In this document: positions 40,089-55,288 of the stretch, one piece after another
Layout: the number at the start of each line of letters is the position of its first letter
Position numbering within the stretch: the stretch's first letter is position 1
Assembly (NCBI RefSeq): GCF_000739635.1
Contig: NZ_BATQ01000072.1
Coordinates: 1 to 64,000, forward strand
Source of the DNA: Verrucomicrobium sp. BvORR034
GTDB lineage: Bacteria > Verrucomicrobiota > Verrucomicrobiia > Verrucomicrobiales > Verrucomicrobiaceae
Direction of reading: 5' to 3'
DNA length: 64,000 bases
Program-made: the position numbers and the translations under genes
The notes under the pieces: generated by a model
What the model was told of the DNA's origin: nothing
Database searches by the model: none
What the model saw: only the letters and a program-made list of their open reading frames with translations

Positions 40089-42665
40089 ATGAACCCTGAA
40101 CGAATCACTGTTAAGCTTCAAGAGGCCCTCGCGTCGTCGCAGTCCCTTGCGACCCGCTATGGCCATGCGGAGGTCAAACCCTCCCACATGCTGCTGGCCC
40201 TACTGGAGCAGGACGGCGGCATCACCAAGCCGCTGGTGGACAAGGTGGGGGCCAACGCGGCCGCTCTGCAGTCGGCGGTGGAATCTTTCCTGGCCAAGCA
40301 GCCTCGTATTTCTGGCGGCGGCGGGGCGGACCGGCTTTCCGGCGACCTCCGTGAAACTCTGGCCAACGCCGAGAAGGAGCAAAAGAACCTCAAGGACGAG
40401 TACCTGAGCGTCGAGCACTTCCTCCTCGCCCTCTTCAAGACGCGCACCGATATCGAAGGCGTGCTGAAGAAGGCCGGTCTGAAGTACGAGACCCTGCTAC
40501 AGGCCCTCACTTCCGTGCGCGGTGCCCAGCGGGTGACCGACCAGGACCCGGAAGGGAAGTATCAGACGCTGGAAAAATACGGCACGGATCTGACCGCCCG
40601 TGCACGGCAGGGGAAGATCGATCCCGTGATCGGCCGTGACGATGAGATCCGCCGCGTCATGCAAGTGCTCTCGCGCCGCAGCAAGAACAACCCCGTCCTG
40701 ATCGGCGAGCCCGGTGTGGGCAAGACCGCTATTGTAGAAGGATTGGCCCGCCGCATCGTCGCGGGTGACGTGCCCGACTCCCTGAAGAACAAGCGCGTGA
40801 TCAGCATGGACCTGGGCGGCATGCTCGCCGGGGCCAAGTATCGCGGCGAGTTCGAAGAGCGCCTCAAGGCCTTCCTCAAAGAAGTCACTTCCAGCGAAGG
40901 CGAGATCATCCTCTTCATCGACGAGCTCCACACCATTGTGGGGGCAGGCGCGAGTGAAGGTGCCGTGGACGCCAGCAACCTGCTCAAGCCGCAGCTCGCT
41001 CGTGGCGAACTGCGCTGCGTTGGGGCCACCACTCTGGACGAGTATCGCAAGTACATTGAAAAGGACGCCGCTCTCGAGCGCCGCTTCCAGCCGGTGTACG
41101 TGGGAGAGCCCAGTGTCGAGGACACCATCGCCATCCTGCGAGGCCTGAAAGAACGGTATGAGGTGCACCATGGCGTGCGCATTCAAGACAGCGCCATCGT
41201 GGCGGCGGCCACTCTGAGCCACCGGTACATCAGTGATCGGTTCCTGCCGGACAAGGCGGTGGACCTGGTGGACGAGGCGGCCAGCCGGCTGAAGATCGAG
41301 CTCGACTCCATGCCCACGGAGATCGACGTCATCGAGCGTGACGTCATGCAGCGTGAGATGGAGCGGCAGGCCCTCAAGAAGGAGACCGACCCCGCCAGCC
41401 GTGCCCGCCTGGAAAAGCTGGAGAAGGAGATCGCCGATCTCAAGGAGAAGGGCTCCGGCCTGAAGCTCCAGTGGCAGAAGGAGAAGGAAGTCGTGCAGGC
41501 GAGCCGCAAGGTGAAGGAGGAGATCGACCGCCTCCGCACTGAGCAGGAGCAAGCCCAGCGTCGCGGCGACTTCGCCCGTGCCGGGGAGATCCAGTACGGC
41601 CTCATTCCCGATCTGGAGAAGAGGCTCCAGGAGGCGACCCAGGCCCATACCCAGGGGGCCGCCAAAGGGCAACTGCTGCGGGAAGAGGTGACTGAGGACG
41701 ACATCGCCAAGGTGGTCGCCACCTGGACCGGCATTCCCGTGAGCCGTCTTCAAGAAGGGGAGCGGTCCAAGCTCACCCACATGGAGGACCGTCTGGCCAA
41801 TCGTGTCATCGGGCAGAATAGCGCCATCAAGGCGGTCTCGAATGCCGTCCGGCGTGCCCGGGCCGGCCTCCAGGATGAGAACCGCCCCATCGGCAGCTTC
41901 CTCTTCCTCGGGCCTACCGGGGTGGGGAAGACGGAACTGAGCAAGGCCCTGGCCGAGTTCCTCTTCGACGACGAGAACGCCATGACCCGCATCGACATGA
42001 GCGAGTACATGGAGAAGCACAGCGTGGCCCGACTCATCGGGGCGCCTCCCGGCTACGTCGGCTATGAAGAGGGCGGCCAGCTCACGGAGGCAGTCCGTCG
42101 CCGACCGTACAGCGTGATCCTCTTTGACGAGGTGGAGAAAGCCCACCCGGATGTGTTCAACTCCCTCCTCCAGGTGCTGGATGACGGGCGGATCACGGAC
42201 GGGCAGGGGAGGACGGTGGACTTCCGGAACACGGTCATCATCATGACCAGCAACATTGGCAGCCATGCCATCCAGGAAGAAGCCAACCCCGAACAGCGGG
42301 AGGCTCTCGTTCGCGATGCGTTGCGCCAGTTCTTCCGTCCGGAGTTCCTGAACCGCATTGATGAGGTCATCATCTTCGACCGGCTTGATGCCCGTGATCT
42401 GAGCGAGATCGTCAAGGTCCAGCTCCAGCGGGTGGTCAGCCGCCTGGCAAAGCAGAACATTGGTCTGGTCCTCACGGACGAGGCGGTGCGGAAGATTGCC
42501 GACGATGGTTACGACCCCGTCTTTGGAGCCCGCCCTCTCAAGAGGGCCATCCAGAAGCTGGTGCTGGACCCGCTCTCACTCGATATGCTCGACGGGAAGT
42601 TCGTCGATGGCGATGTCATCGAGGCCCGACTGGAAGGCACGGGGATCCAGTTTGTGAAAAAGTGA
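40089..42665 (+). CDS. clpB: ATP-dependent disaggregase ClpB
   Basis: 858 residues, standard for the family. An N-domain (~1-145, [16 protein letters not shown]) is followed by NBD1 with Walker A GEPGVGKT at 206-213 and Walker [10 protein letters not shown]. The coiled-coil M-domain spans ~400-520, with [12 protein letters not shown] at the start of NBD2. NBD2 has Walker A GPTGVGKT at 608-615 and sensor region [17 protein letters not shown]. It works with DnaK to resolubilise aggregates. The ATG at 40089 aligns with the family start ([14 protein letters not shown]). A strong terminator follows the stop. Confidence 0.98.
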
Positions 42666-53600: not shown

Positions 53601-54033
53601 GAAAACGCAGGACCTTGTGTCCGGTGCCCATGGCCAGGCCCTGAAACAGCAAGGGTCGCGTTATCGCCGCGAACCCCTGGGACCGGAGGCCACGGTGAAG
53701 AGCGGTGACCTGCTGGAGGTGGAACTCATCACGGAAAGCAAGAACGACTACGAATACCTCATGCTGGAGGACTTCAAGCCCGCCGGATGTGAAGCCGTGG
53801 ATCTACAGAGCGGGTATGTCTGGAGCCAGGGGCTCAATACGTATCGTGAGTTCCGCGATGAAAAGGTGACGCACTACCTGGAGAGGTTGCCTCGCGGGAA
53901 GCAGTCTTTGACCTATCGTCTCCGTGCCGAGATCCCTGGGAAATTCAGCGCGTTGCCCAGCGTGATCGAGGGGATGTATGCGCCGGAGCTGAAGGGGAAT
54001 GCCGAGGAGCGTAGTGTGTCGATTGGCGAGTGA
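47695..54033 (+). CDS. Large bacterial alpha-2-macroglobulin (thioester type), second copy
   Basis: 2,112 residues. A single N-terminal membrane segment (FATLAALVPVVVWYSAFSL) is followed by a helical, TPR-like region (~40-450) absent from the first copy. Macroglobulin domains follow: VVLTKPVLNGAGAHGFVLDA, then LYITTDRPAYRPGQKVYLAG (MG2 type). The core has FADLLVWNAAATTDAQGK, and the thioester is SYPHGCTEQTLN (C1573, Q1576). The TED helices and a C-terminal receptor-binding-like domain (QSLTYRLRAEIPGKFSALPS) close the protein. No PBP gene adjoins it. A start at ATG 47632 would add 21 residues before the hydrophobic segment. The stop is followed by 138-bp repeats. Confidence 0.94.
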   Translation: MKRSFLKLPWFATLAALVPVVVWYSAFSLDLLGQGAGGKSDGDQAKLLVRAEKLLSEGNGAEAMKLLQPLLDKPLQESGATDQQVRKGLELAFSAQQGLGTAGTGLDALLEGVQKAHPQNWRVLTLSASILERSAHQGSVTDGKYQRQNWTGKRADSTDRDRVQGLVWLRKASTLALQDAGATAAERVNVLLTEANGLLSGKAPWELQSLTDLEKLPEVEINEGGRGQMMWPGRGRGPWGNPADDTGYPVDAAGNPVYFKIPASWETAASDGERWRYLLKLAAETDPASAHLAMFAFVTEIQGWLDVDTLQRTAIWPLIVKRSEQDGKEEGNLRQGIVDLPTLKPEETITRLATGIRRHTLPEDYRFIPILRELGTGGTASAPQALMQLGYIHENRQQRDLAAAVWKEVIERHGKDPQVKEVAEGRLRQIEGHLGKLEGKDTLPAGQKATVDLVFRNAKQVKLTARPVKVDALLDTLQAEYKARANGKKEREQSQWTWLNQAFGTLLSGSVPVRQSEVEKYLGEPAATWEVALEPRAKHADRRITLETPLSRAGVYFLEATFEGGGVAHCMVELADLVVLTKPVLNGAGAHGFVLDATTGRPVSKAKVLAFGYRHEYRSEGNRSKEYWFTREQRFTSGAEGNFPINMDEENRYNWLLRVESPDGGLAVVGFNPFYRHYMGQNPDGQQLKLYITTDRPAYRPGQKVYLAGWARRATYEEGKNGNEFANQRFVVRINDPRGEKLLEQHVVADANGAMSLDLSLADTAGLGRYSVSFSNHTQLAGHAFFQVEEYKKPEFEVKVKTPEKPVQLGEPFTATVEAKYYFGGAVSEAKVHYKVERVRHDASWFPVTPWDWLYGPGYWWRNNDYAWLPGYTSCIRIWPPWWGVRSDPPEVVAEATVDIGPDGTVKIPIETALAKELHGDQDHKYNITAEVTDSSRRMISGSGSVVAPRQPYQVYVWTHRGFYEAGTEARVSVQARTPDGSPVNGKAVLKVLAVTYEPGGAPVETEKSRFELVARDGNPAVQVLQFPQTGHYRLAVEFDDGAGHKVEGTAHTTVRGKDFDGKDFRFPDLEVVSEKAEYAPGEDASFVVNIAQEGGSILVFERPQNGGYPKPRVVTLAQGKSTRITLPVGTNDQPNFFLEVVTVHGAKIHTQVVQVPVPPSKRIAEVKLTPSQETYKPQADGTVQIQVKHPDGTPVQGPVILTGYDKALEYISGGSNVPNVRDFFWGWKRNHFMIGVSSLNTVNSQISLPGLNWEAVGVFGNRYLGMSTRMNFAIGGSGGGFGYKNEFKRNGRVDYDMAGLPAPASAPMTAAAAPMEAAKSKAIAADSIDGLLASNQSVAGAEEATPMIRQDFADLLVWNAAATTDAQGKVTLPVHFPDDLTTWKLRAWVLGPNTEVGEASVEVISRKDLLVRMQAPRFFVERDEVVLSGIVHNDLKEKQNVRAVLELDGKTLAPLEGQATEQRFEIAPGGEHRFDWRVKVIAEGEATVRMKALAAGESDAVEKKFPVYVHGMLRQDAWSLAIRPDQGQGTIAFEVPDKRRPAQTRFEVRYSPSLAAAMVDALPFLVSYPHGCTEQTLNRFVPTVITQKVLLDLGLDLKAIRDKGVNLNAQELGDPVKRAQQWRRYRKNDQDPVFDEKVVKKMAAAGIDRLESMQANDGGWGWWPGAAQGSSHLTAQVVDGLLQARAAGADVPAGMLSRGLDWLSRHEEEELRRLNLPEKAQDHKTQADNEDALVHAALVAGERGNRGMRTHLYNDRLKLSKSMQALVGLACATVKETERRDMITRNLEQFQKQDEENQTAWLDFGNDQRWWYWYDDETETLAAYLKLRLIKDGRDPVASRLVKYLLNNRKHGNYWKSTRDTAAAISALAMYIKASGETAPDLMVELWLDGKKVKEAPINKENLFSFDHAFVIEGEALTAGKHQLEIRRKGAGPLYANAYLACFTLEDHLRAAGLEVKVQRNLYKLVPEKTQDLVSGAHGQALKQQGSRYRREPLGPEATVKSGDLLEVELITESKNDYEYLMLEDFKPAGCEAVDLQSGYVWSQGLNTYREFRDEKVTHYLERLPRGKQSLTYRLRAEIPGKFSALPSVIEGMYAPELKGNAEERSVSIGE

Positions 54034-54044
54034 GGCTGTCGGAA

Positions 54045-54440
54045 GAAGCTCGTAGCTGCACTTGTGAAAGTGCGGAAGGGTGGCGTGGCTCAGTGGGGTT
54101 GGCAGCGGGTTCATGGGGGGCAAGCTGCCTGAACGCGTTCTCACGAACGCATCCACGACTGACTCTCATTGACCGCGCAGCGGAAGCTCGTAGCTGCACT
54201 TGTAAAAGTGCGGAAGGGTGTGGCGTTGCCCTGTGGGTAGGCAGCGGGTCATAGGTAGCAAGCTGCCTGAACGCGTTCTCACGAACGCATCCACGACTGA
54301 CTCTCATCGACCGCGCAACGGAAGCTCGTAGCTACACTCGTGAAAGTGCGGAAGGGTGGCGTGGCCCTGTGGGGCAGGCAGCGGGTCCATGGGTGGCAAG
54401 CTGCCTGAACGCGTTCAGACGAACGCATTCACGACTGACA
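54045..54440. repeat. Tandem array: three 138-bp units each with two hairpins
   Basis: Units start at 54045, 54183 and 54321, each beginning GAAGCTCGTAGC; the third is cut at about 120 bp. Hairpin 1 is GCACTT-loop-AAGTGC (54058-54073 and 54196-54211) with loops GTGA and GTAA, both GNRA tetraloops; copy 3 (54334-54349) keeps the GTGA loop but loses two stem pairs. Hairpin 2 is GCGTTC-loop-GAACGC in all three copies, with loop TCAC, TCAC and AGAC. No spacers separate the units, so it is not a CRISPR. The array starts 12 bases after the alpha-2-macroglobulin stop. Confidence 0.92.
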
Positions 54441-54565
54441 CCTCGTTGCCGTCTCTTCTCGCTCACCCAATTCTCTCATTGCCGGGATTTTCTTCCAGCG
54501 GTATGAAAGGGGGCGTCGGGGGCTGGAGTTTTGCCCGTGTCCTCGGTATGCACTGCCCATTTGCC

Positions 54566-55288
54566 ATGAAATCCAATGCCTTGTCATTCCTCACTTCAAT
54601 AGTATGCGGCATGGCGTTGGTAGGTTGCATCGGCCTGCAGAGTCCCAGTGGTCAGGGGCCGCAATGGGCGGCTCGTATGAAGGCCAACTCAGACGCGCGG
54701 AAATCCCAGCAGGCTCAAGCACAAGCAGGTGGGCCGGGAGCCGCGCCAGGCCAGATTGCCCTTGGGCCAGATAGGGTGCCTCTGCCTGGTCAGCCCGCCC
54801 TTCCTCCCGGCGCGGCGGGGGCCGGTGCGACTCAAGACTCCGGTGGTTCAGGCTTCTTTGGCGTGCTCAACAACGGAGATGCCCCCGACATTCCCCAGCG
54901 TCCCAAGTACGACCAGGGGGCGCGACGTCAGCCTATCACGGAGAGTTCTACCACCCTGCTGAGGCAGGAGGTGGCACCGATGGACCCCGTGCACTTTGAC
55001 AAGAAAACGGGCTACCCCATTCGACAGATGGAAACCGGGTACGAAACCCTGCCATTGCCTCGTGAAGGGGCGCAGGTCGGTGCCCAGCTGCCAGCATCCG
55101 CCATCACTCCCGCGTCGGTGGCCCCAGTTGCCATGGACCCCAAGGACATCCGGACGGGCACCCGGAGTACCACCTTCGGCCGGGTGCGCAGCCCCTACCC
55201 ACCGTATTTGGAGCTGGACTCCTCCGGCGTTCTCCCTGGCTCCCTGGCGAGAGACCCCGCCACGGGCAAGGTTTTCCGCATTCCTTAG
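54566..55288 (+). CDS. Lipoprotein with the SPYPPY C-terminal module
   Basis: 240 residues. The lipobox is MALVGC with Cys21. A low-complexity Gln/Ala/Gly/Pro region follows (~45-110). The last ~48 residues include DPKDIRTGTRSTTFGRVRSPYPPYLEL, interrupted by no gap, and end PGSLARDPATGKVFRIP. The same module ends the next gene's product. ATG 54566 was chosen because it begins the signal peptide; frames farther upstream translate the 138-bp repeats. Lipid-anchored; function unknown. Confidence 0.78.
   Translation: MKSNALSFLTSIVCGMALVGCIGLQSPSGQGPQWAARMKANSDARKSQQAQAQAGGPGAAPGQIALGPDRVPLPGQPALPPGAAGAGATQDSGGSGFFGVLNNGDAPDIPQRPKYDQGARRQPITESSTTLLRQEVAPMDPVHFDKKTGYPIRQMETGYETLPLPREGAQVGAQLPASAITPASVAPVAMDPKDIRTGTRSTTFGRVRSPYPPYLELDSSGVLPGSLARDPATGKVFRIP

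Follow-up and report, generated by a model that had tools for sequence, protein, structure and literature searches.

The hairpins repeated behind an alpha-2-macroglobulin gene in Verrucomicrobium sp. BvORR034 raise the question of whether they belong to a new structured RNA or to an element that folds as DNA. The window analysed is a stretch of 64,000 nucleotides of contig NZ_BATQ01000072.1. A sequence-only reading of its positions 54,045 to 54,440 had seen in the conserved stems the mark of selection on an RNA fold, had matched them to no known repeat family and had offered a transcribed repeat RNA, a 3' UTR processing array or a mobile palindromic unit as possible identities. The last of these options is the one supported by the present analysis. 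The array is most likely a bacterial repeat of a kind already known and not a new RNA. We are confident that it represents a BIME, in which REPs (repetitive extragenic palindromes), here of the GTAG type, are paired in inverted orientation, within a non-autonomous REPIN population most likely spread as single-stranded DNA by the type of RAYT (REP-associated tyrosine transposase) found in a sister species and described below.

As the earlier reading had stated, the array consists of three tandem units with 138-bp spacing, located at 54045-54439 (TRF: 2.9 copies, 89% matches, score 635). The upstream open reading frame, which encodes the 2133-aa alpha-2-macroglobulin, ends at 54033, and the adjacency of gene and array therefore stands while the spacing is corrected from 12 to 11 bases. 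The downstream neighbour is an ORF at 54356-55288 on the same strand as the alpha-2-macroglobulin gene, which has no Pfam match and whose true start is likely to be the in-frame ATG at 54566. Each unit carries two hairpins, referred to here as REP A and REP B, and the features of the array are as follows.

54045..54439, no strand: tandem array of three probable BIME units, starting at 54045, 54183 and 54321
54052..54075, + strand: copy 1 REP A, GTAG CTGCACTT GTGA AAGTGCGG, 8 of 8 pairs, pair 2 being T.G
54101..54129, no strand: copy 1 linker with a possible GGCAGC/GCTGCC stem, present in the folds of copies 2 and 3 and not in that of copy 1
54133..54156, - strand: copy 1 REP B, GTGG ATGCGTTC GTGA GAACGCGT, 8 of 8 pairs
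54190..54213, + strand: copy 2 REP A, loop GTAA, 8 of 8 pairs
54271..54294, - strand: copy 2 REP B, loop GTGA, 8 of 8 pairs
54328..54351, + strand: copy 3 REP A, decayed, pairs 3 and 8 lost
54409..54432, - strand: copy 3 REP B, decayed, tag GTGA, loop GTCT, stem with 8 of 8 pairs

The second hairpin (B, - strand) is an inverted version of the first (A, + strand), and both share a GTRG tag directly before an 8-bp stem, a T.G wobble at pair 2 and a GTGA or GTAA loop. The loops of hairpin 2 that read TCAC, TCAC and AGAC on the + strand are GTGA, GTGA and GTCT on the - strand; its stem is indeed intact in all three copies, but is 8 bp long and not the six pairs originally described. Four of the six hairpins are intact, and the second hairpin of copy 3 has kept its stem without the tag and loop. 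Folding as DNA gives -6.1 kcal/mol for REP A of copies 1 and 2 and only -1.5 kcal/mol for that of copy 3; the B hairpins reach -6.7 kcal/mol in windows shifted by one base, in which only 6 of the 8 pairs could form. Whole units folded as RNA and compared with shuffled sequences give z values of -3.52, -1.38 and -1.77 for copies 1-3, a clearly better fold for copy 1 only. The GGCAGC/GCTGCC stem of the linker lies outside the shared REP motif.

Counting copies genome-wide and in relatives, as had been suggested for this locus, reveals a large family. A DNA search with unit 1 returns 36 matches in the window's own genome, some of which span only one half of the unit (e.g. 5-41 or 84-117), and the pattern GTRGCYGNNNTYGTRARA occurs in 118 copies there against 0 for the reversed pattern. 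Among 95 relatives scanned with GTRGCYGNNNTYGTRARA, the count is high in two: G003, a member of the same genus which we take to be Verrucomicrobium spinosum and whose assembly is one contig of 8,220,857 bases, has 230 copies (control 1), and G007, of the same family, has 116 (control 0). G065, G006 and G002 follow with 14, 11 and 9 copies (controls 0, 0 and 2), and the remaining relatives have 0 to 4, which is within the control range. The copies in G007 are a close variant, GTAGCCGCGTTCGTRAGA.

The anatomy of the family was examined in 38 regions of the own genome (268,497 bases) using a loose anchor that prescribes the tag, the loop and a portion of the 5' arm and places no constraint on the 3' arm. 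This anchor finds 130 copies (reversed control 7), and the free 3' arm pairs in 118 to 126 of them at each of the 8 positions. Two-sided swaps are common at pair 1 (CG 111, AT 7), pair 4 (CG 108, GC 8), pair 5 (GC 71, AT 50), pair 6 (TA 95, CG 22) and pair 8 (CG 77, TA 37, GC 6), and 119 of the 130 copies have a T.G wobble at pair 2. Uncompensated stem changes, which the sequence-only reading had named as evidence against a conserved fold, do exist (4 to 12 unpaired cells out of 130 per stem pair), yet the stems covary overall. For the own regions combined with 20 G003 loci (319 REPs in 71 clusters, with 89 distinct 24-mers), pairs 4-8 are formed in 0.890 of cells compared with 0.709 after shuffling (sd 0.012; maximum 0.746 of 2000) and with 0.33 to 0.52 when slid out of register, these script-based statistics being ones that ignore the relatedness of copies. 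Stem conservation with compensation, as first noted in the three units, is thus real genome-wide.

Loop composition was assessed by a scan, with no condition on the loop sequence, for GTRG followed by 8 paired positions around any 4 bases, with GRTG as the control tag. The 38 own regions yield 118 hairpins (control 4), of which 113 have GNNA and 109 GNRA loops, counts that lean to GTRA because the regions were mostly picked via a GTRA-loop pattern. In the 20 G003 loci, 214 hairpins are found (control 1), with 212 GNNA loops, 170 GNRA loops and 40 GTCA loops. The GTGA and GTAA loops of hairpin 1 and the loss of two pairs in its third copy were correctly read at the outset, but GNRA as the rule for the family was dropped in favour of GNNA on account of the GTCA loops and of GCCA, the commonest loop near related RAYT genes.

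The copies are arranged in inverted pairs and small clusters located mostly between genes. A partner on the opposite strand is present within 130 bp for 103 of the 130 copies in the own genome, and in 95 cases the two are tail to tail with tags outward. The copies form 48 clusters, comprising 16 singletons and 32 groups of 2 to 8. Only 5 of the 130 fall in predicted genes, compared with 0.737 of random places, according to an author-made hexamer gene model for which 147 long ORFs served as the training set. Relaxing the loop to GTVA (GTAA, GTCA or GTGA) gives 54 clusters, of which 10 lie inside predicted genes, 12 at region edges and 32 between two genes. The flanking genes of these 32 are convergent in 14 cases, co-directional in 15 and divergent in 3, compared with 24, 69 and 24 for all gaps of more than 50 bp in the same regions, array gaps included. 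The convergent enrichment has a Fisher p of 0.011; the divergent depletion is not significant (p 0.20). According to PMC3733652, REPs are found preferentially downstream of genes, and the placement of these arrays agrees with this.

A transposase gene of the kind associated with REPs lies inside an array of this family in G003. In the own genome there are 15 PF01797 (Y1) matches, and the motif occurs in the flanks of 0 of the 15 (about 1.5 kb on each side where the contig allows); a link to an own-genome Y1 gene was rejected for this reason, and some of these genes adjoin other palindromes. The G003 gene is a Y1 ORF of 201 aa (G003:C1:4876698-4877300; 1499-2104 of the extracted locus L133, also contained in L191), with the + strand motif at 603 to 1358 of L133 before the ORF and at 2137 to 2444 after it, and with a - strand partner, GTGGATGCATTCGTGAGAATGCGT, that has the A-T foot of window hairpin 2. 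Its protein carries MPDHAH and YIADNP. It matches NF047646 (REP-associated tyrosine transposase) with an E value of 1.8e-16 and 60.3 bits, below the curated cut-off of 80, and PF01797 with 29 bits; two further proteins, as partial translations, score 40.7 and 32.5 bits against the same NF047646 cut-off of 80. A clade profile of 15 rows has TnpA-REP 4er8 as its sole PDB match at E<=0.01 (E 5.5e-9), and in 50 distinct proteins the HUH and Y...NP residues H75 (50/50), H77 (49/50), Y138 (48/50), N142 (47/50) and P143 (48/50) are near-invariant. Judged by its sequence, the G003 protein is a divergent RAYT.

It resembles TnpA-REP/RAYT, class 2 of the TnpA-Y1 family, in its HUH motif (MPDHxH), in the tyrosine of YIxxNP, which corresponds to the Y---NP signature (passages of PMC6006769; PDB 4er8), and in having REPs on both sides of the gene. 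Among the class 2 subclasses laid out in PMC6006769, its motifs match no row exactly in the portions of the paper covered, 2.5 and 2.7 being nearest by eye, and 'Verrucomicrobi' occurs 0 times in those portions. Strong relatives (E 3.6e-32 or better) are present in 12 of 96 genomes, and the 37 named loci of the clade are nearly all from Verrucomicrobiota or Planctomycetota, with 3 from unnamed bacteria and 1 from Armatimonadetes.

Hairpins of the same design are concentrated beside the genes of this clade. Fifty clade loci, picked by protein similarity alone with the exception of L191, were scanned for GTAG or GTGG followed by 8 paired bases around a loop of 4-5 bases. There are 132 such hairpins in 66,515 bases within 700 bp of the clade genes and 2 in 128,634 bases at distances above 1200 bp, and the control tags give 2 and 3. 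At least one strict hairpin lies near the gene at 25 of the 50 loci, and 21 of these 25 have some loop of the form G..A; by copy, the loops of the 132 hairpins include GCCA (46), GTGA (21), GCAA (19), GTCAA (18), GTAA (5) and GTCA (4). No strict hairpin was found beside the gene at the other 25 loci, including L176, the second G003 member, and L183 from G006. In an inspection, made without a control, of 24 of these (all but L268), 21 share a repeat between their flanks and 3 share none of at least 13 bases. Several of the shared repeats are GTAG-tagged with another fold, e.g. GTAGGAGACGACGTGAGGAG, a type seemingly representing a second REP design within the RAYT clade. No fewer than two REP designs thus exist within the clade, only part of which follows the GNNA rule. 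Flanking repeats of the GTAGGAGACGACGTGAGGAG type are seen at L234, L241, L248, L250, L257, L267 and similar loci.

The own assembly yields no strong member of the clade, the best matches having E values of 1.2e-6 and 8.5e-9 compared with 1.5e-72 or better for members. The sequences on either side of the RAYT array of G003 (L191) match the start of own contig C123 (L227) and the end of own contig C125 (L213), at most about 320 bases from the contig ends, and both places carry REPs. Because the two contigs break at the RAYT locus, an own RAYT, if present, would lie in the gap, and its absence as a biological claim was dropped. Ten contig ends of the own assembly lie within 500 bases of a copy; REP arrays break draft assemblies exactly where the transposase gene may lie. 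A clade RAYT was likewise not found in G007, a draft that is 92% complete and in 220 contigs, despite its 116 copies.

The place orthologous to the window array holds 4 units in G003. Units 2 to 4 there are 96-99% identical to one another and 89-94% like the window units, and unit 1 is 79-86% like the other units. In G002 this place lacks REPs and is occupied by an ORF of 869 aa that has a macroglobulin MG2 domain (L280 3039-5648). In a non-random set of 20 G003 loci, 9 have both flanks in common with an array locus of the own genome, the RAYT locus doing so across two contigs, and no recent jump is therefore seen. Shared loci with changed unit number indicate that the arrays are often old and evolve by gain, loss and homogenisation of units.

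REPs, BIMEs and RAYTs have already been described (PMC2817692, in part), and GTAG repeats have been reported from Verrucomicrobia (Opitutus terrae) and Planctomycetes in passages of PMC3733652. According to the portions of PMC3733652, PMC2817692 and PMC8049555 considered here, the window family shares with GTAG-type REPs and with BIMEs/REPINs the GTAG/GTRG tag, a short stem-loop, more than 100 copies, inverted pairs, tandem clusters, sites that are intergenic or at gene 3' ends, compensatory stem variants and a RAYT inside an array; the sequences of its stem and loop differ, with a GNNA tetraloop and T.G at pair 2. REPtron Sm of Stenotrophomonas maltophilia (group 3) is also alike in having GTAG directly before an 8-bp palindrome with a small loop starting with G, but has a 3-nt loop and a perfect stem where the window family has a 4-nt GNNA loop, a wobble pair and a different RAYT (passages of PMC8266576). 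The same passages report that the first loop base, G, is essential in the S. maltophilia REP, that the REPtrons described there use REP DNA in single-stranded, folded form and of one strand only, and that the enzyme reads tag and hairpin. Little was found on REPtrons in Verrucomicrobiota or Planctomycetota, and no description of the window family was found in the portions covered of the literature on REPs and RAYTs in these phyla and in Verrucomicrobium spinosum, although PMC3733652 may contain it in its figures or files. It is therefore regarded as a new family of a known kind, which may yet coincide with one of the 24 published GTAG families.

Under the proposed mechanism, the tag-bearing strand would become single-stranded during replication or repair, and each REP would fold as a DNA hairpin. 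The cognate RAYT, a single-strand HUH/Y1 transposase, would read tag, stem and loop, cut nearby and move or copy the pair of REPs to a new and usually intergenic site, where units could multiply or shrink by local recombination or slippage and decay by mutation. We infer the cutting and mobilisation steps, and likewise that this RAYT type serves, or formerly served, the copies in the window.

Set beside this explanation, a transcribed RNA element, such as a 3' UTR stabiliser, a processing site or a terminator whose hairpins are kept for the 3' fold of the macroglobulin mRNA, is very improbable. In its favour are the covarying stems and the location of arrays near gene 3' ends, as in the convergent enrichment above, and REPs elsewhere are reported to be active at the RNA level in passages of PMC3733652. 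The array, however, has no Rfam match at gathering score, for which reason an RNA family was rejected, and a promoter or intrinsic terminator was rejected because neither was found in 53900-54700; the divergent depletion is not significant, and the loops depart from GNRA. The GNNA hairpins of a unit are on opposite strands, and one transcript therefore cannot carry both. The same hairpin design also surrounds RAYT genes in other genera and in another phylum, which a function at mRNA ends does not predict. The features first taken for selection on an RNA fold and for the absence of a known repeat family are better read through the GTRG tag, the inverted pairing, the intergenic arrays and the RAYT inside the sister-genome array, which are marks of REP/BIME DNA. 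The array may have a secondary effect on RNA or on the ends of mRNAs, but its features do not require selection on an RNA fold.

Two other DNA-based explanations fare no better. That the units are a MITE, or what remains of the end of a different transposon (a DNA transposon or classical IS200/IS605), and not a RAYT-linked REP has a marginally lower probability still: many other Y1 genes exist in the own and related genomes, including forms of 350-370 aa, but the motif is missing from the scanned flanks of all 15 own Y1 matches and, among the scanned Y1 loci of other genomes, lies on both sides only at the L133 RAYT. One motif copy is present about 2 kb from a Y1 gene at L106. A plain local tandem duplication, that is, an immobile satellite, can be practically dismissed. 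Units within an array are the most alike, and the identity of G003 units 2 to 4 means that local duplication does happen; the motif nevertheless occurs at dozens of separate places (the 48 clusters and 118 copies noted above), and its stems covary. Integron attC sites and CRISPR were set aside by anatomy.

Reading the array as a BIME offers a well-founded explanation in terms of DNA where a new RNA had seemed possible, and it links a further REP population with a likely transposase. It also carries the caution that repeated hairpins with compensatory changes and GNRA-like loops are alone no proof of RNA. A broader proposal, which we advance tentatively and judge somewhat less probable than its negation, is that an unnamed RAYT clade of Verrucomicrobiota and Planctomycetota reads single-stranded DNA hairpins by a fixed rule of GTRG tag, 8-bp stem and GNNA tetraloop, in which the stem drifts by compensation and the loop acts as a strand label. 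Under the same proposal, arrays in the window's genus would have kept their positions at gene ends from one sister species to another and may have been put to use there. Loops of the GNNA type are favourable for hairpins made of DNA. Together, the loop rule and the divergent clade provide a substrate and enzyme pair for studying how RAYTs discriminate strand and hairpin.

Further repeats were observed in the same genomes. Three more Y1/RAYT loci of G003 (L126, L128 and L193) are full of other hairpin tandem arrays with GTAG or GGAG tags, and G003 therefore has several REP populations. The Y1 genes at L034 (own contig C142), L102 (G003) and L125 (G002) are flanked by inverted GTAGCCGGTGGTGAMAACCACCGG, a different REP of the same design, with a tag, 8 bp and a 4-nt loop. 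Within the window itself, a tRNA gene at 1676-1760 on the - strand is the sole Rfam match, and a short tandem repeat of 15 bp in 2.1 copies is located at 41325-41356.
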